From Desulfatibacillum sp. (GTDB lineage Bacteria > Desulfobacterota > Desulfobacteria > Desulfobacterales > Desulfatibacillaceae), in assembly GCA_016342355.1 (NCBI GenBank), contig JAEINP010000049.1:1-35370 (forward strand): a stretch of DNA of 35,370 nt. Reading direction: 5' to 3'. Both the position numbers and the translations under genes were made by a program. This document shows, piece by piece, positions 22,238 to 33,999 of the stretch (within the stretch, counting starts at the first letter, position 1; each line of letters starts with the position of its first letter). Under the pieces are notes generated by a model that saw nothing but the letters and a program-made list of their open reading frames with translations, was not told the origin of the DNA and did not search any database.

Positions 22238-22276
22238 AAACAGGCGGGATGCCTTCTCAATGTCCGGAGGCATCCC
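22238..22276 (-). terminator. Terminator of the glycan operon, overlapping the last stop codon
   Basis: A 9-bp perfect inverted repeat, GGGATGCCT (22246-22254) and AGGCATCCC (22268-22276), brackets the sulfotransferase stop at 22257. On the minus strand it is followed by GCCTGTTTTTATC. Stem plus T-run fit an intrinsic terminator. Confidence 0.5.
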
Positions 22277-23012
22277 CTAACGTCCGGTATAGCTTCAAAA
22301 GGCTTTGAGGGGGATCTGCTTGCAACAGATCCCCCATGCTTGAATGATGACTGATAAGGCGGGGTTGCACGGAAGAGGCGGCGGCTTTAATGGCCGTGTC
22401 GTCAGCGGAAATGCCCATGGTTTTTGCGATGCGTCGGAACTGAATCTCCGGATCGCAAACCAGATCATCAAAATCGACCACCGTCAAGGGCGTAGGGGAA
22501 ATGTCCCCTAAAACCTGGCTGTAATGAAGCTCCCACAGGGTGAAGCTTTTTTGAAGGGAAAACCCGTTGCGGTGCTTGAGGGATTGGGCCACATCCAGGG
22601 GATTGCGGACCATGAGCACTGCGTTCAACAGCGTATTCTGCCTTGCCACGGCCCGGCTCCATAAAGGCAGGAGCAAACAGGCCCGGGGGTCCTTAAAGGC
22701 CCATAAGGATTGGTGCTTGAAAATGAAATCCAGCATTTGTTCGAGTTGTATTTGATATGTCGCTGCCTGGGGCAGGGCGTCCCAAATAGGCAAAGCTGCT
22801 GTATCGTGCCAGGTCCGGCCCATGGCGTGCAATATCTTGTCGTGGAATTCCATCAGATCCCACCGCTCCCAAAAACCCGCCGGGTTATCGCGGGCCGGTC
22901 CCATAAGGGCGCTTTCCTCCCCCATCCAGGCCCCCAGGAGGTTTATTCCCCGGGCAGCCAGGGAGGTCCCGCTCCGGTGCATGCCCAATATGGCAATGGC
23001 TCTATTCTTCAT
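22257..23012 (-). CDS. Sulfotransferase-family protein
   Basis: A 251-residue protein with the P-loop-like 5'-phosphosulfate loop GMHRSGTSLAA (10-20), a FKDPR motif (106-110) typical of bacterial polysaccharide sulfotransferases, and a 3'-phosphate-binding segment LMVRNPLDVAQSL (R136). It lacks membrane helices or a signal peptide, so it would act in the cytoplasm using PAPS. As the last gene of the glycan operon, overlapping the Wzt-like gene by 4 bases (ATGA), it probably sulfates a sugar or glycolipid made by the locus. Enzymes of this fold also sulfate other small molecules. No PAPS-synthesis gene is nearby. Confidence 0.85.
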   Translation of the reverse strand: MKNRAIAILGMHRSGTSLAARGINLLGAWMGEESALMGPARDNPAGFWERWDLMEFHDKILHAMGRTWHDTAALPIWDALPQAATYQIQLEQMLDFIFKHQSLWAFKDPRACLLLPLWSRAVARQNTLLNAVLMVRNPLDVAQSLKHRNGFSLQKSFTLWELHYSQVLGDISPTPLTVVDFDDLVCDPEIQFRRIAKTMGISADDTAIKAAASSVQPRLISHHSSMGDLLQADPPQSLLKLYRTLGDASGH

Positions 23013-24346
23013 GGTTCGTCTTTATACTCGATGCTGATGCGGGAGGTGTTGTCCAGGTGTACGGAGAAATCCGTCAGCCCGGTAGCCAGCAGGCCCTTTA
23101 CCGGCATGACCCGGAACATGACTGCGTCCACCACCCTGTGCAGGAAGATCGTGGTGTTGTCCTGCAAGCCCTGGACCCCGGCGTTGAAAAAATAAGCGTT
23201 CGGCGTAAGCTGGCATTTGAATGTAAAGCGCAGACGAATCACGGCGCCCTTTTTGACAAGGGGAATGCCGTCATCCAAGCCATGGGAAATGGCGCCGCCC
23301 GCCTCCAATCCGCTTTGGGTTTTGATCATCATGCCAAAACGGACATGTTCCGCATCCCGGTCAAAGGCCACGTCATAGGTGTAAATATAGTCCTGGCCCA
23401 TGATCAGGTCGCTCACGGCTTGGCCTTCCCGGGTGAGTATGCGGGGGTTCAGGATGCGCGTCCCGTAGTGTTCGTAAATGCGAGGCTGGTGGAGGCCTGC
23501 CTGTTCCTCCACCAAAGGGGCGCCATGGGAAGGAACAGGGGCCTTGCCAGTTTTTTGAATATGGTCCAGGATGATTGTTTGGTTTTCATACGAGGCGTTG
23601 GCGAATCGTTCGTATTCGCCCACCACAAAGGCGGGAGCGCCCTGGAGGATTATCCGGCCTCTTTCGATCCACAGGGCAGTGTGGCACAACTCCACAACAT
23701 TTTGCAGGGAATGGGATACCAGGATGACGGTGCCACCGTTCCGGCGGATCTGGTTGATCCGGGCAAAGCATTTTCGGCGAAACGCTTCGTCGCCCACGGC
23801 CAGGGTCTCGTCCACCACCAGGATGTCGGGGTCGGCATGGATGGCCACGGCAAAGGCCAGCCTGACGTACATGCCGCTGGAATAGGTTTTGACAGGCCTG
23901 TGTATGAACTCCCCAATATCCGCAAAACTGAGGATACCCGGTATTTTTTTGTCCATTTCAGCTTTTCTAAAACCCATGAACGCGCCGTTCATATAGGCAT
24001 TTTCCAGGCCCGAAAACTCCGGGTCAAAGCCCGCGCCAAGCTCCAGGAGGGTGGAAACACTCCCCCGCATTTCCACTTCTCCCCGGGTTGGGGTCATAAT
24101 GCCGCAAATGATTTTTAGTAAAGTGGTCTTGCCTGAGCCGTTCCGGCCCACAATGCCCAGAGTAGTGCCTTTGGGGACGTCAAAACTCACATTGTTCAAG
24201 GACCGGAAGGTTTCGCTGAGTCTCAGGGAAGAGGGAAGAAACCGGCGGAAAAAGCCTGGCTTCCCGGGACCCCATACCTTGAAATCCTTGGTGAGTCCAC
24301 GCACGGAAACCGCGGAGACGCATTCTTTGGGAGCATTGTCACGCAT
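23009..24346 (-). CDS. Wzt-like polysaccharide ABC transporter ATPase with C-terminal carbohydrate-binding region
   Basis: A 445-residue protein. The ATPase has Walker A GRNGSGKTT (67-75), the signature TYSSGMYVRLAFAVA (154-168), Walker B ILVVDETLAVGDE (175-187) and switch H212 (LVSHS). The signature and the NNVSFDVPKGTTLGIVGRNGSG lead-in (starting at 51) are those of O-antigen/teichoic-acid exporters (Wzt, TagH). Residues about 290-445 form a beta-rich extension (LIMGQDYIYTYDVAFDRDAEHVRFG...) matching the Wzt C-terminal domain that reads the chain terminus in ABC-dependent O-antigens such as E. coli O8/O9a. The gene overlaps the preceding GT4 gene by 8 bases and the next by 4. The Wzm permease is not in the window. 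Confidence 0.92.
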   Translation of the reverse strand: MRDNAPKECVSAVSVRGLTKDFKVWGPGKPGFFRRFLPSSLRLSETFRSLNNVSFDVPKGTTLGIVGRNGSGKTTLLKIICGIMTPTRGEVEMRGSVSTLLELGAGFDPEFSGLENAYMNGAFMGFRKAEMDKKIPGILSFADIGEFIHRPVKTYSSGMYVRLAFAVAIHADPDILVVDETLAVGDEAFRRKCFARINQIRRNGGTVILVSHSLQNVVELCHTALWIERGRIILQGAPAFVVGEYERFANASYENQTIILDHIQKTGKAPVPSHGAPLVEEQAGLHQPRIYEHYGTRILNPRILTREGQAVSDLIMGQDYIYTYDVAFDRDAEHVRFGMMIKTQSGLEAGGAISHGLDDGIPLVKKGAVIRLRFTFKCQLTPNAYFFNAGVQGLQDNTTIFLHRVVDAVMFRVMPVKGLLATGLTDFSVHLDNTSRISIEYKDEP

Positions 24347-25385
24347 AAAGGCCTTTGTAGACCTCCTTCATGGTTTTGGCTATCTTTTTCCAGTCAAACT
24401 CCAGGGTCTTTTGTCTGGTCGCCTTGGCCATGGAGGCGCATTGATCCGGGTTTTCCTTCAAAGCCATCAAGGCGTCCAGGGCGCGATCCATATTTTTTGG
24501 AGGTATCAACAGGCTGCCCGAAGAATCACAATAATCCCTCACCCCGCCCACATCCGACGCCACCACGGGCAGGCCGCAGGCCATGCCCTCCAAGAGGGCG
24601 TTGCTGGCGGTAAAATCATGAACCGGCATGAACAAGGCGTTGGCGGACTGGTACTGCTCCAGGAGATCTATGTCCGGCAGGTTTGAAAACACCCGGGTGT
24701 CGGGTAGTCTGTCAAACTGCCTGGCTTCATCCCGGGGGAGAACCAGGTTGAACCCAATGCCTGTGTTTTGTTTGGCCGCCCTCTTGATTACTTTGGCGAG
24801 CAGGGGAAAGTCCCGCAGCCAGGCGCCCACCATCAGGACCGTGAAACGCGATTTATGTTCCGTGGTTTCCGGGGCGGGCATAAAATAGTTTGTATCCACC
24901 CCGTGGGGAATCAGTTGCACCTTGCGGTCTCCCAGGATGTCCTGCAAAAAATCCCTTTGGCTGGAAGCGCAGGCAATGACTGCGTCAGCCATTCGCAGGG
25001 ATTTGCTGCTATGAAAAATACTTTTAAAGACCTCCGGGGGCTGGTGCAGGCTCACAACCACCCTGCTGTTTTTATGGCGCGGAAATCGTCCGGCCCAACG
25101 GAAGTCATTCTCGCCATATAGCCAGTGATAAACAGCCCCCTCAAAAGGAAGGCAGGCCATGGCCTGGAACTCCCGGGCAAGTTGTTGGGGCCTCCAATAC
25201 CAGGCATAGGGCGGAGTGTCCAGCAAGGGCGCAATAACAGGGGAGGGGAGGGTTTTTAAAATTCCGGACAATGCCCTGTGGGGCATGGCCGAAAGGTCCC
25301 GGGACCGGATAAATTTCCTTAGCTGGTCGTACCCTGAGCAAGCGGCGTGGTGTTTGATGCGTTCCCCGATATAGACCACCCTCAT
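24339..25385 (-). CDS. Glycosyltransferase family 4 (first of two)
   Basis: A 348-residue GT-B fold enzyme. The C-terminal half shows the GT4 donor-binding pattern: LIPHGVDTNYF (near 163), FTVLMVGAWLRDFPLL, and the E-x7-E region ASNALLEGMACGLPVVASDVGGVRDYC (near 263-289). The N-terminal acceptor domain starts MRVVYIGERIKHHAACSGYDQL. Such enzymes transfer a sugar from a nucleotide sugar at the cytoplasmic face with retention of configuration; sugar and acceptor are unknown. It lies 19 bases after the membrane protein gene and overlaps the ABC gene. Confidence 0.88.
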   Translation of the reverse strand: MRVVYIGERIKHHAACSGYDQLRKFIRSRDLSAMPHRALSGILKTLPSPVIAPLLDTPPYAWYWRPQQLAREFQAMACLPFEGAVYHWLYGENDFRWAGRFPRHKNSRVVVSLHQPPEVFKSIFHSSKSLRMADAVIACASSQRDFLQDILGDRKVQLIPHGVDTNYFMPAPETTEHKSRFTVLMVGAWLRDFPLLAKVIKRAAKQNTGIGFNLVLPRDEARQFDRLPDTRVFSNLPDIDLLEQYQSANALFMPVHDFTASNALLEGMACGLPVVASDVGGVRDYCDSSGSLLIPPKNMDRALDALMALKENPDQCASMAKATRQKTLEFDWKKIAKTMKEVYKGLYA

Positions 25386-25404: not shown

Positions 25405-27135
25405 TCAATATTCCTCTCCCTGACCCATTATACGGTATAGGACCCGTTTTTCAAGGCCATGAATCGTATCAGCCCCTTTTGGCTTGGGAATGATCCCTGC
25501 CAGGGATTCCCATCCCGGACGATCCAGGGAATTCAAACGGGTTATCCCGGTTGCATTCAATTCCAGGGCAATGACCTTGTCAGGATCAATAGGACGGATT
25601 TCCCGGCTCTCTCCCGGGATGATCAGATGCCAAGTGTTCCGGATTTTATCATGCCGAATACTGGAGGCAATCTCCCCGGTCAGGGCAAACAGGGCTGGCG
25701 GATTGTCCCAGTCCTTGGGAAAGGAAAAAAGCTGCCCCAGGACCAGACGCACAGACCATGCGTTGGAGACAACAAAGTCCGTTCTTGTTTTGATGTTTTC
25801 TTTGACAAACAGGGTTGTTCCGTCTTCCAGGTCCGGGCTCTGGGTGAGTACGTTTTGCCAGAATTGGCGCTGGAAGCAGGCGCTATTTACAAAGTCTTTT
25901 TGCACGGCCATGGAAAACCCCAGGAGAAGGGCCAGGTACATGGCCAAAATTCCTGTGGTCAGCCTTTTAAGGGAAACTATTTGTCCCATTTCCAAAAAGA
26001 TCCAGGCAAGTCCGGTCATTATTATAGATGCCCCGAAAGTGGCTGCCAGATGCACACAGGTATCCCGACCGCCCAGGCTGACCGGTGGCCAGCGCGTGAA
26101 GGTGAGGGCATAGCCTATTGTCAGGGCGACTGCACCGGCAAGAACAAGTCGGAGTCCTTCCATCACTCCTTGAGGCAGGGTAAGCCTGCAATCCATTTTC
26201 AGAAAATACTTCCTGGAAACTGTTGAAAAGGTAATATGCTGTAATGGTATATCATTGGATATTTTCAGGATTCCCCACCAAACCGCTGCGGCAAAAATCG
26301 GCATGGCAGCGAGGGAGGCAGCGTCGGCGTGCGCCAGGGCGAACCAAGGCCTGATGAAAAAAGCCTTTGCCACGGTCAATGGCCCCAAAATCATGCCCGA
26401 AAAAATGTGGTGCAGGGTCAGCCAGGGGTTTTGGGTCAGGAGTTCGCCCATGCGGGTTTCGTGCATGGCGGTTCTAAGTAAGGCATGGGCCAGGATGGCC
26501 AGAATCACCATGGAAAACACGGCAAACAGGTTTTTGAGGGTTTGGCGGTTCCAGGGGGCCTTTAACAAAGGCACGGCCAGGAATGGAATGATTGATGTTT
26601 CGTAGGTGATCAGGGTTCCGGTGATGAGGGCGAAGGACAAAATTTTGCGGCCATCCAGATATGCAAGGGACGCGCCCAGCAAAAAGGAAAGGGAAGCCTG
26701 AAGGGCCATGTTGTGAGTCAGCATGACATGGGTGGTGTCGGCGGGAAACAGACAAAAGGCGCAGGCGCCCGCAAAGGCCGGGCCTGCTGGAGCTGCTTTT
26801 TTTGCCGCAAAATAGAAAAGAATCGCATTGGCGGCCACAATCAGGTATCCAAACAGATACACCCAGGCCAGTCCGCCCAGGGCCATGCCCAGGAATGTGA
26901 AAACCGGCATGAGTGAAAAATGAAGGGGACGGCCCTGGGGCCACGCTTTCCAGGCCCAACGGAGGAGATGCCAAATCTGCACCCACCCGGACTCCAGGTG
27001 TTTGCCGACATGGTTATAATCGTCCTCATAAAGGAGAAAATCCCGAACCCACAAAAAATGGGCGGTCCATGCAACAGCCGCCAGGGCCAGAATAATCAGG
27101 ATGTTTTGCTTGCTTGAGGCGGAAAGGTTCATCAT
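25405..27135 (-). CDS. Multispanning membrane protein, GT-C-like
   Basis: A 576-residue protein with about ten hydrophobic helices in the first 410 residues and a soluble C-terminal domain of about 160. The first loop after helix 1 carries FLLYEDDYNHVGKH (34-45). An acidic pair in that position is the hallmark of GT-C glycosyltransferases (PMT/ArnT/GtrII-like), which use polyprenyl-phosphate sugars on the periplasmic side. I cannot assign a named family, so a polymerase-like or flippase-like role is possible. It starts at ATG 27135, or at the adjacent in-frame ATG 27132. An 88-base gap with a hairpin separates it from the preceding GT4. Confidence 0.75.
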   Translation of the reverse strand: MMNLSASSKQNILIILALAAVAWTAHFLWVRDFLLYEDDYNHVGKHLESGWVQIWHLLRWAWKAWPQGRPLHFSLMPVFTFLGMALGGLAWVYLFGYLIVAANAILFYFAAKKAAPAGPAFAGACAFCLFPADTTHVMLTHNMALQASLSFLLGASLAYLDGRKILSFALITGTLITYETSIIPFLAVPLLKAPWNRQTLKNLFAVFSMVILAILAHALLRTAMHETRMGELLTQNPWLTLHHIFSGMILGPLTVAKAFFIRPWFALAHADAASLAAMPIFAAAVWWGILKISNDIPLQHITFSTVSRKYFLKMDCRLTLPQGVMEGLRLVLAGAVALTIGYALTFTRWPPVSLGGRDTCVHLAATFGASIIMTGLAWIFLEMGQIVSLKRLTTGILAMYLALLLGFSMAVQKDFVNSACFQRQFWQNVLTQSPDLEDGTTLFVKENIKTRTDFVVSNAWSVRLVLGQLFSFPKDWDNPPALFALTGEIASSIRHDKIRNTWHLIIPGESREIRPIDPDKVIALELNATGITRLNSLDRPGWESLAGIIPKPKGADTIHGLEKRVLYRIMGQGEEY

Positions 27136-27223: not shown

Positions 27224-28426
27224 TTATCTGTTGGACAAAAGATCCTGGAGGACTGTCTCCACCTTTTTACTCAATATTTTCCAGTCAAATTTTTCTGCAA
27301 CATAAGCATATCCGGTTTTACGCATTTGCACCCGCAGGTCAGGATTGCTTAGGGTATCCCAGACAGCTGTTGCGAAACCGTCCAGATCGGAAATGACCAC
27401 ATGCGTCTTGTTTTTCAGGTCCAGGCCCCTGCATCCAAAGGGGGTTGAGACCGTGGGAATGCCCGCGGCCATATAGTCCAGCATTTTAATATTCACGCCC
27501 GAGCCCTTGGACATGGGGTTCAAGGCCAGGTCAGCGGCGCGCAAGTAATGGGCCAGGTAGTCGTCGGTCAGGATTCCGACAAAATTTACATTATCCGGGG
27601 CCTGGCTGTCTGAAAAGGCATTGGTGACGGTACCCACAATGGCAAACTGGCAGGTGGGCAGTTCCTTGGCCAGATGGTTGACAATAAAATCCACCGCCTG
27701 GATGTTGGGCTTATAATAAGCCCCCACAAAAAGCAGAAGCGGTTGCCTGGCAAAACCCAGCTCCTCCCTGGACTCAAGCCTTTCTTTCAGCGCGGGCAGG
27801 GGCGGGATATCCGTGCCGTTTTCCACAATGTGGATTTTTGCCGGGTCCAGTTTGTACACGTCCAGAAAATTTTGCTTGTCCTCTTCGGAGCAGACAAGGA
27901 TAGCCTTACTGCGCCTGCAAAGATCGCCTTCCAGCTTTTTGGTCCAACGGGTCAGAAGGGGGCGGAATAAATTCCCTTCGGCCAGGGAGCACATAAGACT
28001 GTATTCGCAGTTGTGGGCGTCGTAAATGACGGGGGCATCCATGCGGAATTTCAGGGTGTTCCAGGCCCAAGGATGGCTACACACAATCACGTCGGCGTGT
28101 TGGCTTTCCAATGCGTCCACATAATGTTTGGCCCTATCAATAAAAAAATAGGTATACAGGTCAAAGCTCAGGTCTTTGAACAAACGCTCATGAATGGGGA
28201 GCCAGTACTTATAATAGGATTCCGGCATGGAGAACCGTTTTTCCAGGAAGTTTTCCCCAGCCTCAATGCCTTTGACCAGCTCATACTGCCCCGTATCCAC
28301 ACCCACATACATGAGGTCGTACTTGTGGGTCAGGTTGGAAAACAACCCCCAGATCCTTTTGGGGCCGCCCCAAAGAGGGGGGTAAAGCGGCGCCGTATCG
28401 CTTATGAGTATTTTTTTTCGGATCAT
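27224..28426 (-). CDS. Glycosyltransferase family 4 (second)
   Basis: A 400-residue GT-B enzyme. The N-terminus ILISDTAPLYPPLWGGPKRI contains the Gly-rich acceptor loop. The middle has VIYDAHNCEYSLM and AILVCSEEDKQNFL. The C-terminal Rossmann domain has HIVENGTDIPPLP, LLLFVGAYYKPNIQAVDFI, and SGVNIKMLDYMAAGIPTVSTPFGCRGL in the donor-sugar region. This is standard for GT4 enzymes of capsule and O-antigen loci; specificity is unknown. It starts 12 bases after the second radical SAM gene, so they are co-transcribed. Confidence 0.9.
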   Translation of the reverse strand: MIRKKILISDTAPLYPPLWGGPKRIWGLFSNLTHKYDLMYVGVDTGQYELVKGIEAGENFLEKRFSMPESYYKYWLPIHERLFKDLSFDLYTYFFIDRAKHYVDALESQHADVIVCSHPWAWNTLKFRMDAPVIYDAHNCEYSLMCSLAEGNLFRPLLTRWTKKLEGDLCRRSKAILVCSEEDKQNFLDVYKLDPAKIHIVENGTDIPPLPALKERLESREELGFARQPLLLFVGAYYKPNIQAVDFIVNHLAKELPTCQFAIVGTVTNAFSDSQAPDNVNFVGILTDDYLAHYLRAADLALNPMSKGSGVNIKMLDYMAAGIPTVSTPFGCRGLDLKNKTHVVISDLDGFATAVWDTLSNPDLRVQMRKTGYAYVAEKFDWKILSKKVETVLQDLLSNR

Positions 28427-28438
28427 GGTGTTTGCTTG

Positions 28439-29545
28439 TTACAGGTTCCCAAAAACCACCGTGGTGCTGGAACCTGATTCCTTTCGCGCCTCTGGCTTGA
28501 GTTTTTCCAATCGTTTCAAGAGGGTCTCGTCCCTGTCCGGGCCGTCGAAAAAGTTTTCCCTGTTCCAGATAATCCCACGGATTTTTTGAAAATAGATTGA
28601 ATCCACACCAAGGTGTTTGCCCAGGCGGACAAAATCAACCATTTCTTCCAGGTTGCTGCGCATGACGGTGAAATTTATAAAAAACAGGGGGATCACCCCT
28701 TGCTTGCGAAGATCAGACAAAAACTCCAGGTTGGCCGTCAGGGTATCCCATTTGCCCGGCCTTCTCAGATTTTCGTAGGTATCCCTGGTGGCAGCATCTA
28801 CAGATACATTAACATAATGGAAGGCATTATGCTTGATTTTTTTCCATATTTTCGGTTCAAACAAGAGGCCGTTGGTAAAAAGGGCGATTTTCGGATTGGA
28901 GTTTTTGCGTTTAGAAAACAGAATGTTGCGTGTGTCCTTGCGGAATAGGGGGTCCCCGGCCCCGGTCAGACCCAACACCTTAAGGTCTGGAAGGCCGGTA
29001 TGAACCTCCCGGGCGACCCGCTCCAGTGCGCCCATATCCTCCCCTTCCACTATTTCCCGTTGTTTATCCACTGCACAGGAAAAGGGGGCGCCTAACCTGT
29101 TTTCTGCATAAATTTCCCGAAAAGGGCCGCACATGGGGCATTTTAAGTTGCAGGTCTCCAGGTTGGACATGAGTACATAGGTCGGCGAGGCCTGCATGAA
29201 AGTTTTTGCCGACCCGATGTCCTCAATGTGCCGTTCAGTCAGGGTGAAAAGCCTTGTCTCGTTGCCCTCCAGGGTGAGGTCTTTCCACCCTTCGCTGATG
29301 AGTACAGGACATACTTCGGGCCTGCACACGTCGGTCCATTCCCCGGCATACATTTTTCTGCGGATATACCGGGCTGTATCACTGTTCCAGATTTCCGCCA
29401 GGCTTTGGTACTGCACATTGCCGATATACGGAACCTTGCTCCACTCCACGCAGCAAAAACTCACCTCGCCTCCTGGCTGAAGCTCCAGGGAAGTAAAGGG
29501 CCGAATGCATCGGACCTGCTTATGCCTGATCCCTTGGGAGGTCAT
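28439..29545 (-). CDS. Radical SAM protein with N-terminal SPASM-like segment
   Basis: A 368-residue protein. The radical SAM cluster motif is C132-x3-C136-x2-C139 (ETCNLKCPMCG). The usual core elements follow: LKVLGLTGAGDPLF for the SAM-binding GGE-type strand, and ALFTNGLLF and VNVSVDAA further on. Before the core, residues 13-80 hold five more cysteines (C13, C31, C32, C74, C79) around IGNVQYQSLAEIWNS, a motif normally found in C-terminal SPASM domains that bind auxiliary iron-sulfur clusters. The start is set by an ATGA overlap: ATG 29545 and the upstream TGA share bases, so translation is coupled to the fusion gene; a longer frame to 29704 lies wholly inside that gene. The substrate is unknown, probably a glycan-linked or nucleotide-linked sugar (inference). 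Confidence 0.88.
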   Translation of the reverse strand: MTSQGIRHKQVRCIRPFTSLELQPGGEVSFCCVEWSKVPYIGNVQYQSLAEIWNSDTARYIRRKMYAGEWTDVCRPEVCPVLISEGWKDLTLEGNETRLFTLTERHIEDIGSAKTFMQASPTYVLMSNLETCNLKCPMCGPFREIYAENRLGAPFSCAVDKQREIVEGEDMGALERVAREVHTGLPDLKVLGLTGAGDPLFRKDTRNILFSKRKNSNPKIALFTNGLLFEPKIWKKIKHNAFHYVNVSVDAATRDTYENLRRPGKWDTLTANLEFLSDLRKQGVIPLFFINFTVMRSNLEEMVDFVRLGKHLGVDSIYFQKIRGIIWNRENFFDGPDRDETLLKRLEKLKPEARKESGSSTTVVFGNL

Positions 29546-31674
29546 CGGTTCTGTAAAGCCTCCTCTATAAAATGGCAGCTTAGAATCCGGCAGGTCCGGG
29601 GGCAACGGGCGATTTGCTCCCGCCGTTTTGCCGCTTCCGGGGAGTTCCAGATTTTTGCCGGGGCCTCGTGGAGAATATTGCCAACAGGAGGCAGGTTCCA
29701 GCAAAGGAGCACATCCCCGTTATTCCTGATAATAAAATTTTTATCCCCGGAAAGGCATTGGGTATTGCGGCAGAAATCCTCGGGATCGGCGAAATAGCGC
29801 TGCATGGCCTGCAATTGTGCCGGGCTGTTGTCTATGGGGCAGCCCCTGAGCTTCATGGCCCGCAATTGCCCAGTGGCATGGCTCAGGGCATTCAGATCTT
29901 TTATCCAGAACGGACTGGAAGCAAACCACTTGGGATCGTATGCATGGTGAAAGTTCTGGTCCAGAGGCTGAAAGCAAATGAAATCCGCGCCGCCTTTGTA
30001 CACAAACTCTGCAAGAGCCGGCAGTTCCTCCACGTTGGGCGCCATGACAATGGATGCAACACCTATGGAAAATTCCTTTTGCCGGTAACGCCGGAGTTCC
30101 TGCAAATGTCTGATGGCCCGTGTGGCCCTGGCAAAGGTCCCGGGGACTCCCCGCATGCGGTCGTGCAGGGCGGGTTGCAGGCTGTCCAGGGAGATGTGAA
30201 TGGAATCCAGGCCCGAATCCAGCATTTTCCGCGCCCGGGACTTGGTGATGAGCCCCCCGTTGGAAAGCATGACCGTCTCTATGCCCATATTGCTTGCATG
30301 AGCCACCAACTCATCGTTGTCCTGCCGCAGCAGAGGCTCGCCCCCGGCAATGTCAACCCGATACGGCCCCAGCCAGTCGAATACCTTGTCCATGGAGTCC
30401 ATCCATTGGCGGGTGGTAAGCTCCTCTTCCCGGGCCTGGGACCAGATTCCGCACATGCGGCATTTCAGCTGGCAATTGTTGGTGAACTTCATGCTGATGA
30501 TTTGGGGCAGGGGAGGGTAGGGTAGGGGGGGCGTTTTCAGGACAGCCGGAACAGCAGCCCTCACTCTGTCTGCCGCCTTTTGTACAGGACGCAGGACATA
30601 CCGGTACGAAAGGGATTCCCGTATAAGCCGGAGTTCCTCCTCCCTCTGCAGCACAAGGTCGCGGAGACGGTCGATTTCGCGGTACAGGCGGGTTTCCACA
30701 TCCTTTTGGGCGAGAGCCATTTCCATGGCCTGCCTGACCAGGGCGGCTTTCAATGGGTCCTGGATCTTCTCCAGCTTGGCAAAGACCTCTTTCAGGGCTC
30801 TGCGGGCCTTGCTTTTGGCATGGGCGGCTAAAAGTTTATCACAGGCCTTGGAGACCGCCGGGATAAACGCCTCTCTGGTCTCTTTGCCGGGTTCAAGGAA
30901 AAAGCCTCGGCCCATGAGATTTTCCGCCAGTTTTTCCGGCCAGTGCTTGGCGATCAGGAGTAATCGGTTGGATTCGGCCAGGACCCTGGCTTTTCCTTCT
31001 GCGCCCACCGACCCATGGCCATGGTGGTACACGATACTTTGGGGCTGGCAGGCCAGTTTCCATCCCATGGCCCGGGACCGTAGGGCCAAGTCCACGTCTT
31101 CCAGGAACATGACAAAATCCTCGTCCAGCAGCCCCGCCTGCTCCAAACACTCCCTGCGAAACATGGCGCAGGCGCCGCACAGGCTGTCCGCATCCAGGAT
31201 ATCTTCGCCGTACTGGCCCAGGTCGGGCTCGCCCATGCCCCGGTCCATCCAGTAGTGGTCCGGATGCCGCACATGCCCCAGGCTTTGGAGGACGCCGTCA
31301 AAAAAAAGCAGCTTGGGTTGAACGCCTCCCAGAACCGGGTTTTGCTCCATGGCCCGGACCAGGGGCCAGAGCCAGCCTGGTTCCACCTTGGTGTCGTTGT
31401 TCAACAGGACAATGTAATCGCCCGAGGCGTTTTGTATTCCCTTGTTGTTGGCGGCGGAGTAGTTGTTGGGATGGTTTTTTAACAGTCTGACCCGGGGGAA
31501 TTCCTCCCGGACAAGGTCCTGAGATCCGTCCGTGGAGCCGTTGTCCACACACAGGATTTCCAGCATGTCCTTGGGATAATCGGTTTGAAGCAGGGATGAA
31601 AAACAATCCCGGAGAAACCTCCGGCCATTAAAATTGACCACAACAACGCTGATTTTAGGTGCGGCTTGTTCCAT
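29542..31674 (-). CDS. Glycosyltransferase 2 / radical SAM-SPASM fusion
   Basis: A 710-residue cytoplasmic protein with three parts. Residues 1-245 are a GT2 (GT-A) domain: SVVVVNFNG, VDNGSTDGS (43-51), LLNNDT (90-95, DXD-like) and LEDVDLALR (191-199), close to rhamnosyltransferase-type GT2s. Residues 270-375 are helical and charged, with a likely coiled coil at 325-355. Residues about 392-710 are a radical SAM enzyme: C401-x3-C405-x2-C408 (CQLKCRMC), GGEP at 444-447 and SIHISLDSL. A C-terminal SPASM domain carries C635, C640, C658, C691, C695, C700 with GNILHEAPAKIWNS. A single uninterrupted frame supports a true fusion. It is the first gene of the operon, with no clear Shine-Dalgarno before the ATG at 31674. 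It may add a sugar and then modify it by radical chemistry (inference). Confidence 0.9.
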   Translation of the reverse strand: MEQAAPKISVVVVNFNGRRFLRDCFSSLLQTDYPKDMLEILCVDNGSTDGSQDLVREEFPRVRLLKNHPNNYSAANNKGIQNASGDYIVLLNNDTKVEPGWLWPLVRAMEQNPVLGGVQPKLLFFDGVLQSLGHVRHPDHYWMDRGMGEPDLGQYGEDILDADSLCGACAMFRRECLEQAGLLDEDFVMFLEDVDLALRSRAMGWKLACQPQSIVYHHGHGSVGAEGKARVLAESNRLLLIAKHWPEKLAENLMGRGFFLEPGKETREAFIPAVSKACDKLLAAHAKSKARRALKEVFAKLEKIQDPLKAALVRQAMEMALAQKDVETRLYREIDRLRDLVLQREEELRLIRESLSYRYVLRPVQKAADRVRAAVPAVLKTPPLPYPPLPQIISMKFTNNCQLKCRMCGIWSQAREEELTTRQWMDSMDKVFDWLGPYRVDIAGGEPLLRQDNDELVAHASNMGIETVMLSNGGLITKSRARKMLDSGLDSIHISLDSLQPALHDRMRGVPGTFARATRAIRHLQELRRYRQKEFSIGVASIVMAPNVEELPALAEFVYKGGADFICFQPLDQNFHHAYDPKWFASSPFWIKDLNALSHATGQLRAMKLRGCPIDNSPAQLQAMQRYFADPEDFCRNTQCLSGDKNFIIRNNGDVLLCWNLPPVGNILHEAPAKIWNSPEAAKRREQIARCPRTCRILSCHFIEEALQNR

Positions 31675-33111: not shown

Positions 33112-33999
33112 TCAGGCATGGACCGCGGCTTTTTCCCTGGCAGGCAGTGTGGTGGTTTCCCAGCAGTTCTTTTCCTGGAAGAATTTCTCCAAAAAGGCGT
33201 GATTGAAGGCGTGGCCGGATTTATGGGTGACGATGTGTCCCAGGATGGGAATGCCTAAGAGCGAAAAATCTCCCAAACAATCCAGGAGCTTGTGGCGCGC
33301 AAATTCATCCTCGAAACGCAGGCCTTCCTCATTGATGACTCGTTCATGATCCAGAACAATGGCGTTTTCCAGGGACCCGCCCTTGGCAAGGCCGCACTGT
33401 TTCATGAATTCAAGTTCCTGGAGAAACCCGAAGGTCCTTGCCCGGCTGATTTCCTCTTCAAAGGCGTTCCCGGAAAGATTGATGGTCACAGACTGTTTTC
33501 CCATGGCCGGGTGGGCAAAGTCGATGTTGCAGGTCACCCGGGCGTTTTCATCGGGATAAATGGTGACGGACCGACCGTTTTCCGACAGCTGGATAGGCTG
33601 CTTGACCATGAAATAATACCTGGGGCTGGCCTGCTCCGTGAGCCCGGCTTCCGCAAGCATACGAGCAAAGGGGGCGGCGCTGCCATCCAGGATGGGGAGT
33701 TCATAGGAGTTGATTTCCACCAGGGCGTTGTCTATTCCCAGGCCCGCAAAACTGGCCATAAGATGCTCAATGGTGGAGACAATGGCGCCATCGCCTCCTA
33801 TGACCGTGGCCAAGCTGGTATCCACCACATTTTTAAACAGGGCGCATATGGTGGGGCGATTGGGCAGGTCAATGCGTGCAAAGCGGATTCCGTGGTTGGG
33901 CGGCGCAGGTTTGATGGTGAGTTCCACCTCCCTGCCCGAGTGCAACCCAATGCCGTTACAACGGGCCTCACTGGCGACCGTATGTTGATATCGTTGCAT
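33112..33999 (-). CDS. lpxC: LpxC, UDP-3-O-acyl-N-acetylglucosamine deacetylase
   Basis: A 295-residue cytosolic zinc enzyme catalysing the committed step of lipid A synthesis, removal of the acetyl group from UDP-3-O-acyl-GlcNAc. Length matches the family (about 300). Zinc ligands are H79 (STIEHLMA), H236 and D240 (ARHKLLDCLGD). Catalytic E78 and H263 (KSGHAFNHAFL) are present, as are the IGLHSG (17-22) and PILDGSAAPF (102-111) motifs. It appears monocistronic rather than placed next to ftsZ as in enterics. No Shine-Dalgarno precedes the ATG at 33999; a TATATAAT box ends 3 bases before it, so the transcript may be leaderless or nearly so. Confidence 0.97.
   Translation of the reverse strand: MQRYQHTVASEARCNGIGLHSGREVELTIKPAPPNHGIRFARIDLPNRPTICALFKNVVDTSLATVIGGDGAIVSTIEHLMASFAGLGIDNALVEINSYELPILDGSAAPFARMLAEAGLTEQASPRYYFMVKQPIQLSENGRSVTIYPDENARVTCNIDFAHPAMGKQSVTINLSGNAFEEEISRARTFGFLQELEFMKQCGLAKGGSLENAIVLDHERVINEEGLRFEDEFARHKLLDCLGDFSLLGIPILGHIVTHKSGHAFNHAFLEKFFQEKNCWETTTLPAREKAAVHA

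Follow-up and report, generated by a model that had tools for sequence, protein, structure and literature searches.

This report concerns one gene, at 29542..31674 on the minus strand of a 35,370-nucleotide (nt) stretch of Desulfatibacillum sp. DNA (contig JAEINP010000049.1 of assembly GCA_016342355.1); this whole stretch is called the window below. The gene encodes a 710-residue protein in which a glycosyltransferase (GT) of family 2 (GT2) is joined by a helix to a radical S-adenosylmethionine (rSAM) enzyme with a SPASM-type domain, and it is the first gene of a glycan operon. With modest confidence, we read it as a bifunctional enzyme of glycosyl transfer and radical tailoring, belonging to a surface polysaccharide machine that depends on an ATP-binding cassette (ABC) transporter. 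The fusion, its intact motifs, its operon, its conserved linkage, and the repeated joining of GTs to rSAM enzymes in another phylum can be read directly from sequence or model.

The fusion protein and its modules

A first-pass annotation of this DNA described a single frame of 710 codons. Such a frame exists without an internal stop, but it runs on the minus strand from 31674 to 29542; the plus-strand frame has stops. The same annotation named GT2, radical SAM, and SPASM domains, and a Pfam search puts all three above their curated cut-offs. The GT2 module (residues 1-286; 30817..31674, minus strand) matches PF00535 at residues 9-178 (E 1.2e-25, 90.8 bits against a cut-off of 23.3) and carries NND at 92-94 and E192-D193, which we take to be catalytic residues. 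Its AlphaFold model matches the folds of ppGalNAc-transferases and GlfT2, with Z of ~22-25 over ~250-282 residues.

The rSAM core (residues 390-610; 29845..30507, minus strand) matches PF04055 at residues 395-538 (E 5.6e-22, 79.1 bits against 29.5) and contains a CX3CX2C motif and a GGE motif (444-446). Cysteines 401, 405, and 408 lie where they had been placed and are invariant in the 30-row family alignment. The SPASM-type auxiliary cluster domain (residues 640-704; 29563..29757, minus strand) matches PF13186 at residues 640-700 (E 5.5e-7, 30.2 bits against 21.5). Six cysteines had been claimed for it, and C635, C640, C658, C691, C695, and C700 are indeed present; of these, C635 lacks conservation, and the remaining five are kept in 82-98% of 108 alignment rows. 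In the 30 rSAM rows, the invariant positions are C401, C405, C408, G444, G445, N472, S495, R508, I614, C640, G653, C658, G665, W676, R685, C691, and C695, and both C700 and E446 are kept in at least 90% of rows. Judged by these motifs, both catalytic cores are intact in the fusion.

The full-length AlphaFold model, built from a 60-row alignment, has a mean predicted local distance difference test score (pLDDT) of 89.6 and a predicted template modeling score (pTM) of 0.54, with two well-predicted domains and one joining helix. The linker (residues 287-389; 30508..30816, minus strand) is helical, as had been proposed: the model gives an 88-residue helix at 287-374. Its confidence is low to middling over much of its length, and the mutual orientation of the GT2 and rSAM domains is therefore undefined in the model. 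A helix of this predicted length argues against a simple hand-over between touching active sites. The case for a coiled coil is mixed. For the window linker, 14 shuffles in 200 reached the heptad signal, and all six GT2-rSAM or GT2-rSAM-rSAM proteins tested were at 5% or above. No shuffle in 200 reached the signal of seven of the 33 linkers or tails tested, all seven from Omnitrophota. Across relatives, linkers or tails are 98 to 737 residues long, some of them cut by contig ends.

The fusion is genuine and not a sequencing error. The orthologue in D. alkenivorans (724 residues, 71-73% identity) has the same fusion, and the differences between the two genes at first, second, and third codon positions number 72/45/140 in the GT2 part, 34/19/58 in the linker, and 59/35/128 in the rSAM half. 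Third positions thus hold more than half of the differences in each part (140/257, 58/111, and 128/222), a pattern to be expected if GT2, linker, and rSAM are all maintained as protein. The orthologous fusion and the codon-position counts together rule out an error or frameshift that joined two genes. The other prospect raised with the annotation, that the halves are always separate in homologues, is also ruled out: a survey of fused versus separate forms found homologues with the halves in one protein or in neighboring genes.

The operon and its relatives

That the fusion stands at the head of a glycan operon is borne out by its neighbors: it is the first of seven minus-strand genes, and the start of the next gene overlaps its stop in ATGA. 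This next gene (28439..29545, start re-set from the mechanical 29704) encodes a second rSAM protein, in which a SPASM/twitch part lies before the core (PF13186 and PF04055); the N-terminal twitch model NF033640 gives it 108 bits, under the cut-off of 170. Then follow, on the same minus strand, a GT of family 4 (GT4; 27224..28426), assigned by Pfam and related in the tree to GT4 parts of the Omnitrophota loci L013, L065, and L086; a 576-residue membrane-type protein (25405..27135); a second GT4 found by Pfam (24339..25385); a Wzt-type ABC ATPase with the glycan-binding domain Wzt_C at its C-terminus (23009..24346; PF00005 and PF14524); and, as the last gene, a sulfotransferase (22257..23012; PF13469). 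Intergenic gaps within the operon are at most 88 nt. Pfam revealed no sugar-nucleotide gene in the seven-gene operon. No Wzm was seen in the window, and a Wzm-like permease lies on another contig.

All seven genes recur, in unchanged order, in D. alkenivorans DSM 16219. The 576-residue protein is conserved there; its membrane character was judged by eye, it has no Pfam or NCBIfam match, and an acidic pair near its start is, again by eye, reminiscent of GT-C enzymes. By eye, the gene preceding the operon differs between the two species. The 567 nt before the operon contain short open reading frames (ORFs) of up to 117 residues and, compared by blastn with the 600 nt preceding the fusion gene in D. 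alkenivorans, gave no match. Beyond the operon, on the same strand, lies an LpxC-like lipid A gene (by eye; 33112-33999); other genes, also by eye, adjoin the D. alkenivorans operon.

Full-length fusions occur in four of the nine genomes of the family. When the class was searched at E 1e-45, 9 of 389 genomes matched; the four full-length matches came from the same four family genomes, and the other five genomes match one half. Please note that candidates were scored per genome (the top 2 in the class and Omnitrophota searches, the top 5 in the rSAM-profile search), that G389 and G001 are the same place and were counted once, and that the fusion numbers given here are counts, not rates. The broader rSAM-profile search of the order matched 52 of 389 genomes at E 1e-40 and gave seven matches in six genomes at E ≤1e-90; those outside the family, two in G014 and one in G372, are unfused frames of 381-405 residues.

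Two of the family fusions have other neighbors, as far as their contigs show. In G004 the fusion (L061, 9300-11606) stands apart from a glycan operon on both sides, with nuclease-, nudix-, and CarD-like neighbors (by eye). The G005 fusion (L062, 82-2436) is broken at an assembly gap, and its one visible side has the same nuclease-like neighbor and no glycan operon. GT2 and rSAM can thus travel as a unit. Selenocysteine at the TGA codons of these two genes was considered and rejected: the 769-residue G004 frame has no internal stop and its TGA is its own end, and the single break in G005 lies beside unread bases in an assembly of 740 contigs and was treated as an assembly gap.

A viral origin was tested against viral_contigs, which gave no match to six peptide patterns. 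The scan of genome_contigs used six exact peptide patterns, able to find close relatives only. Among plasmids, 762 records matched, and none of the 762 covers 80% of the query in one place. On a Halolamina plasmid (NZ_CP054588.1, 123060-124995), a GT lies beside a gene annotated as mftC, with ~25% matches to parts of both halves.

Relatives of the parts also occur in Omnitrophota, the phylum of the Omnitrophica genome G390: of the 384 genomes searched there, 59 gave a match to either half at E ≤1e-40. We fetched 36 Omnitrophota stretches and five more as matching the window protein and mapped their domains with window-seeded profiles; the domain census covers 51 sequences (46 plus 5 of 10, with L105-L108 and L114 excluded as repeats or other-purpose). 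Among the 26 Omnitrophota ORFs with a GT2 part, a Wzt gene lies directly upstream in 18, and an rSAM part lies within the fetched stretch for 14. Wzt_C is present in the one Omnitrophota Wzt that was checked (L013).

The window's family accounts for four GT2-rSAM ORFs, of which one is broken; in addition, the Omnitrophota stretches contain 12 GT-rSAM fusion ORFs in 10 loci. They occur in the orders GT2-rSAM, GT2-rSAM-rSAM, rSAM-GT4, GT4-rSAM, and multi-GT-rSAM. Pfam agrees for all seven of the 12 that were checked and for L061 of the window's own family. The seven are the GT2 protein of L013 with two rSAM and two SPASM stretches (1256 residues) and a second L013 protein of rSAM-SPASM-GT4 order (787 residues); GT2-rSAM-SPASM in L065 (871 residues); GT2-GT2-GT4-rSAM-SPASM in L074 (1842-6827, 1662 residues); GT2-GT2-GT4-rSAM with two SPASM stretches in L084 (8469-14966, 2166 residues); GT4-rSAM-SPASM in L072; and rSAM-SPASM-GT4 in L069. 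Proteins of 1662-2166 residues that combine GT2, GT4, and radical SAM/SPASM were observed in L083 (7974-14210), L084, L096 (11604-17099), and L074, and those of L083 and L084 directly follow a Wzt gene. Each resembles a polymerase and a radical tailoring enzyme combined in a single polypeptide.

The trees link these proteins to the window. They contain only sequences fetched here; sequences that contained over five X, scored weakly, or covered too little were removed beforehand, and array loci were limited to three rows each in the rSAM tree, which used 62 of 120 rows. Closer relatives outside the sampled sequences are possible. One group of the rSAM tree (Shimodaira-Hasegawa-like approximate likelihood ratio test, SH-aLRT, 89) unites the window rSAM with its D. 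alkenivorans and G004 counterparts and a single rSAM from each of L013, L086, and L065; another (99) contains the second rSAM type of these three loci. L013 and L086 (the latter truncated at the start of its contig) carry the two types as a tandem fusion that follows a repetitive, charged stretch; L065 has the second type joined to GT2, with the first type encoded separately by the next gene. The GT4 proteins of the window and D. alkenivorans group with the GT4 of the same three loci (SH-aLRT 100). The closest sampled relatives of both rSAM and GT4 thus co-occur in three Omnitrophota loci, fused or split, and we regard this as the best argument for a single pathway served by rSAM and GTs.

Two other rSAM arrangements were noticed. 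In L066 (8473-12048), a 1192-residue frame fuses a Wzt-type ATPase to radical SAM/SPASM, with Radical_SAM below its cut-off and SPASM above. Tandem runs of 4-12 consecutive radical SAM genes occur in 12 of the 51 sequences (L097, L088, L110, L087, L099, L089, L100, L080, L112, L098, L092, and L113). Many members are SPASM proteins of ~330-370 residues like the window rSAM half, and those of L080 and L092 differ. Among or beside some runs, genes for SGNH-like proteins, B12-binding rSAM proteins, epimerases, and GTs were seen by eye.

Substrate, reaction, and competing explanations

Modeled alone, the rSAM half has a pLDDT of 93.0 and a pTM of 0.90. Among the folds listed, its nearest by Z is BlsE (27.6 over 296 residues, 3.0 Å), followed by SkfB (24.9 over 276 residues, 3.3 Å), SuiB (24.1), anSMEcpe (23.7), DesII (23.0 over 300 residues, 4.1 Å), PqqE (22.9), BtrN (18.9 over 222 residues, 2.9 Å), and EpeE (16.9). 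When the SPASM profile is used alone, only two entries, both of BtrN (4m7s/4m7t), fall below E 0.01 (E 0.002), and they share CX17C.

The auxiliary cysteines of the window protein follow the pattern CX17C...CX3CX4C. SPASM domains with two auxiliary clusters have seven cysteines in the pattern CX9-15GX4C...CX2CX5CX3C...C, and the five conserved cysteines of the window protein depart from it. In the BtrN-type twitch domain, CX17C plus CX2C ligate one auxiliary cluster; against this set, the CX17C of the window protein aligns, and its second pair is CX3C with one extra cysteine. Four of the five could ligate a cluster, leaving the last one free to donate hydrogen; alternatively, all of them could be iron ligands. 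This role bears on the choice between epimerase and dehydrogenase: in the twitch epimerase HygY, one cysteine change reportedly uncovers latent dehydrogenase activity.

Both sugar-active neighbors share features with the window protein and differ from it. BlsE (7vob), which has the highest Z, likewise carries CX3CX2C and GGEP; it is described as a cytosylglucuronate decarboxylase acting on a sugar nucleoside, is a single enzyme, and has the second motif C317xC319xxC322 in place of CX17C...CX3CX4C (PMC3715490, in the portions consulted). BtrN, the 2-deoxy-scyllo-inosamine (2-DOIA) dehydrogenase of butirosin synthesis (PMC10991966, in part), shares the CX17C spacing; its last motif differs, the window protein has a fifth conserved cysteine, and the solved BtrN entries lack a GT fusion. 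Radical epimerization of antibiotic sugars is exemplified by NeoN, which converts neomycin C to B in the last step with Cys249 as hydrogen donor, and by an rSAM epimerization enzyme for avilamycin (excerpts of PMC10991966 and PMC8326336). These substrates are small antibiotics, not surface polymers, and no counterpart of the NeoN donor Cys249 could be assigned in the window protein.

For the glycan substrate, the type of reaction, the order of steps, and the role of the helix, we infer the following. The GT2 half would transfer a sugar onto a lipid-linked glycan. The radical SAM/SPASM half would generate a 5'-deoxyadenosyl radical and abstract hydrogen from a sugar carbon of the glycan, after which either the alcohol would be oxidized, as by BtrN, or hydrogen would be returned from the other face, giving epimerization as by NeoN. 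The helix would keep the two activities apart, and radical tailoring would be coupled to chain assembly, not to donor synthesis. We favor this reading because the operon has a Wzt with Wzt_C, two GT4 genes, a sulfotransferase, and no sugar-nucleotide gene that could be found; because of the ATGA coupling, the fusion in four family genomes, the Omnitrophota GT-rSAM fusions, and the shared rSAM and GT4 kin; and because BlsE, by fold, and BtrN, by SPASM sequence, act on sugar-like substrates.

Several observations weigh against it. The peptide-modifying SkfB, SuiB, and anSMEcpe are close behind BlsE by fold Z; Foldseek, ordered by E-value, puts SkfB first and BlsE sixth; and the sequence matches to solved structures are led by SkfB (E 3.5e-30), with BlsE next. 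The SH-aLRT of 89 for the rSAM grouping is under the starred level, and the window GT2 falls in a 33-row group (99), not specifically with L013, L065, and L086. For 12 of the 26 Omnitrophota GT2 ORFs, several of them at contig ends, the fetched stretch contains no rSAM part, and in the Desulfobacterota loci L015 and L016, from the window's own order, the GT2 relative is fused to GT4 instead of rSAM. The lone G004 gene weakens a strict operon requirement. Finally, the heptad signal of the D. alkenivorans linker (L012) was equaled by 105 of 200 shuffles, which leaves a coiled coil unsupported there.

A rather unlikely alternative is donor maturation, with the rSAM half acting on a nucleotide sugar before the GT2 half transfers the product. 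DesII, which modifies a nucleotide sugar, is among the fold neighbors, and the BlsE substrate, a sugar nucleoside according to the part of PMC3715490 consulted, points the same way; however, no sugar-nucleotide gene was found in the operon, and rSAM is fused to GT2 and GT4 alike, which is odd for a donor-specific step. We consider it improbable that the protein is a ruler and cap, in which one end terminates the chain and the helix sets its length, as in WbdD and WbbB, with rSAM making or modifying a terminal residue recognized by Wzt_C. The Omnitrophota GT2 proteins with long tails directly after Wzt (18 of 26) and the wide range of linker or tail lengths (98 to 737 residues) would suit such a role. 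So would the described ABC-dependent O-antigen machines and their terminators, which are marked by coiled-coil proteins, with terminator and polymerase at opposite ends of a chain-measuring coiled coil (sections of PMC11231755 and PMC5082667) that separates the two activities (PMC11231755, same sections). WbdD, WbbB, and ORF6 of Klebsiella O7 resemble the present case in that a helical stretch bears catalytic modules at its ends and the glycan is exported by an ABC system, but the modules named in the consulted sections of PMC11231755 are methyltransferases, kinases, or GTs, with no radical SAM there. In addition, the window linker is short, its coiled coil is unproved, and there is no Wzm beside Wzt in the window. 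The short coil and the heptad results (14/200; 105/200 in D. alkenivorans) keep the cap role at this low standing and leave our confidence in the tailoring enzyme only slightly past the midpoint.

Quite improbable, in our view, is a peptide or protein substrate, modified by rSAM and glycosylated by the GT in the manner of mycofactocin or of ribosomally synthesized and post-translationally modified peptides (RiPPs). SkfB, SuiB, and anSMEcpe, which are SPASM/twitch enzymes of similar fold, act on peptides or proteins, and no solved protein matches the sequence better than SkfB. Distant likenesses point in the same direction: the GT2 half scores 77.8 bits for MftF, and the rSAM half 63 for MftC and 76.7 for PqqE. 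These values miss the NCBIfam cut-offs of 280, 265, and 381 by far; no named SPASM equivalog passes its cut-off among the matches listed (25 of 67 families), the best of them, NirJ2, reaching 98.4 against 500. Many RiPP maturases contain a RiPP recognition element (RRE), or PqqD, domain, and Pfam found none in the fusion at E 0.001; where enzymes of the SkfB, SuiB, and anSMEcpe type have the RRE, the window fusion has a helix and GT2 before the core. Moreover, the operon is that of a glycan exporter. With no recognized RRE/PqqD and, in gaps of ≤88 nt, no room for a precursor gene between operon genes, peptide thioether or C-C cross-linking is the less likely chemistry on this sequence evidence.

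Relation to described systems and significance

The nearest published association that we found is a plasmid block of Brachyspira hyodysenteriae, where several rSAM genes adjoin genes for GTs and rhamnose and the region is believed to function in lipooligosaccharide synthesis or glycosylation; rSAM and GT are listed there as separate genes, with no fusion stated in the sections of PMC4267127 consulted. Each module is known already. In the open-licence literature searched, we found no description of a GT joined covalently to a radical SAM enzyme within an operon for polysaccharide export, or of such fusions being re-cut repeatedly in a second phylum.

We also put forward, at just short of an even chance, a wider generalization: that these proteins represent a modular class of polysaccharide assembly, spread over two phyla or more, whose radical SAM/SPASM enzymes are built into the GT machine and alter the stereochemistry or the oxidation state of sugars while the lipid-linked chain grows. 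In Omnitrophota, the class would extend to proteins of more than 2000 residues with several GTs and radical SAM parts.

The diversity of surface polysaccharides is usually ascribed to the choice of donor sugars and to methyl, acyl, phospho, and sulfo groups. Our analysis suggests that radical chemistry is integral to the assembly of some bacterial surface sugar chains. If this is true, oxygen-free C-H chemistry would be carried out on the polymer itself, by a radical SAM module within the assembly enzymes, and sugars would arise that nucleotide-sugar genes cannot predict. Many as yet unassigned radical SAM proteins of Desulfobacterota and Omnitrophota would then gain a testable substrate class.

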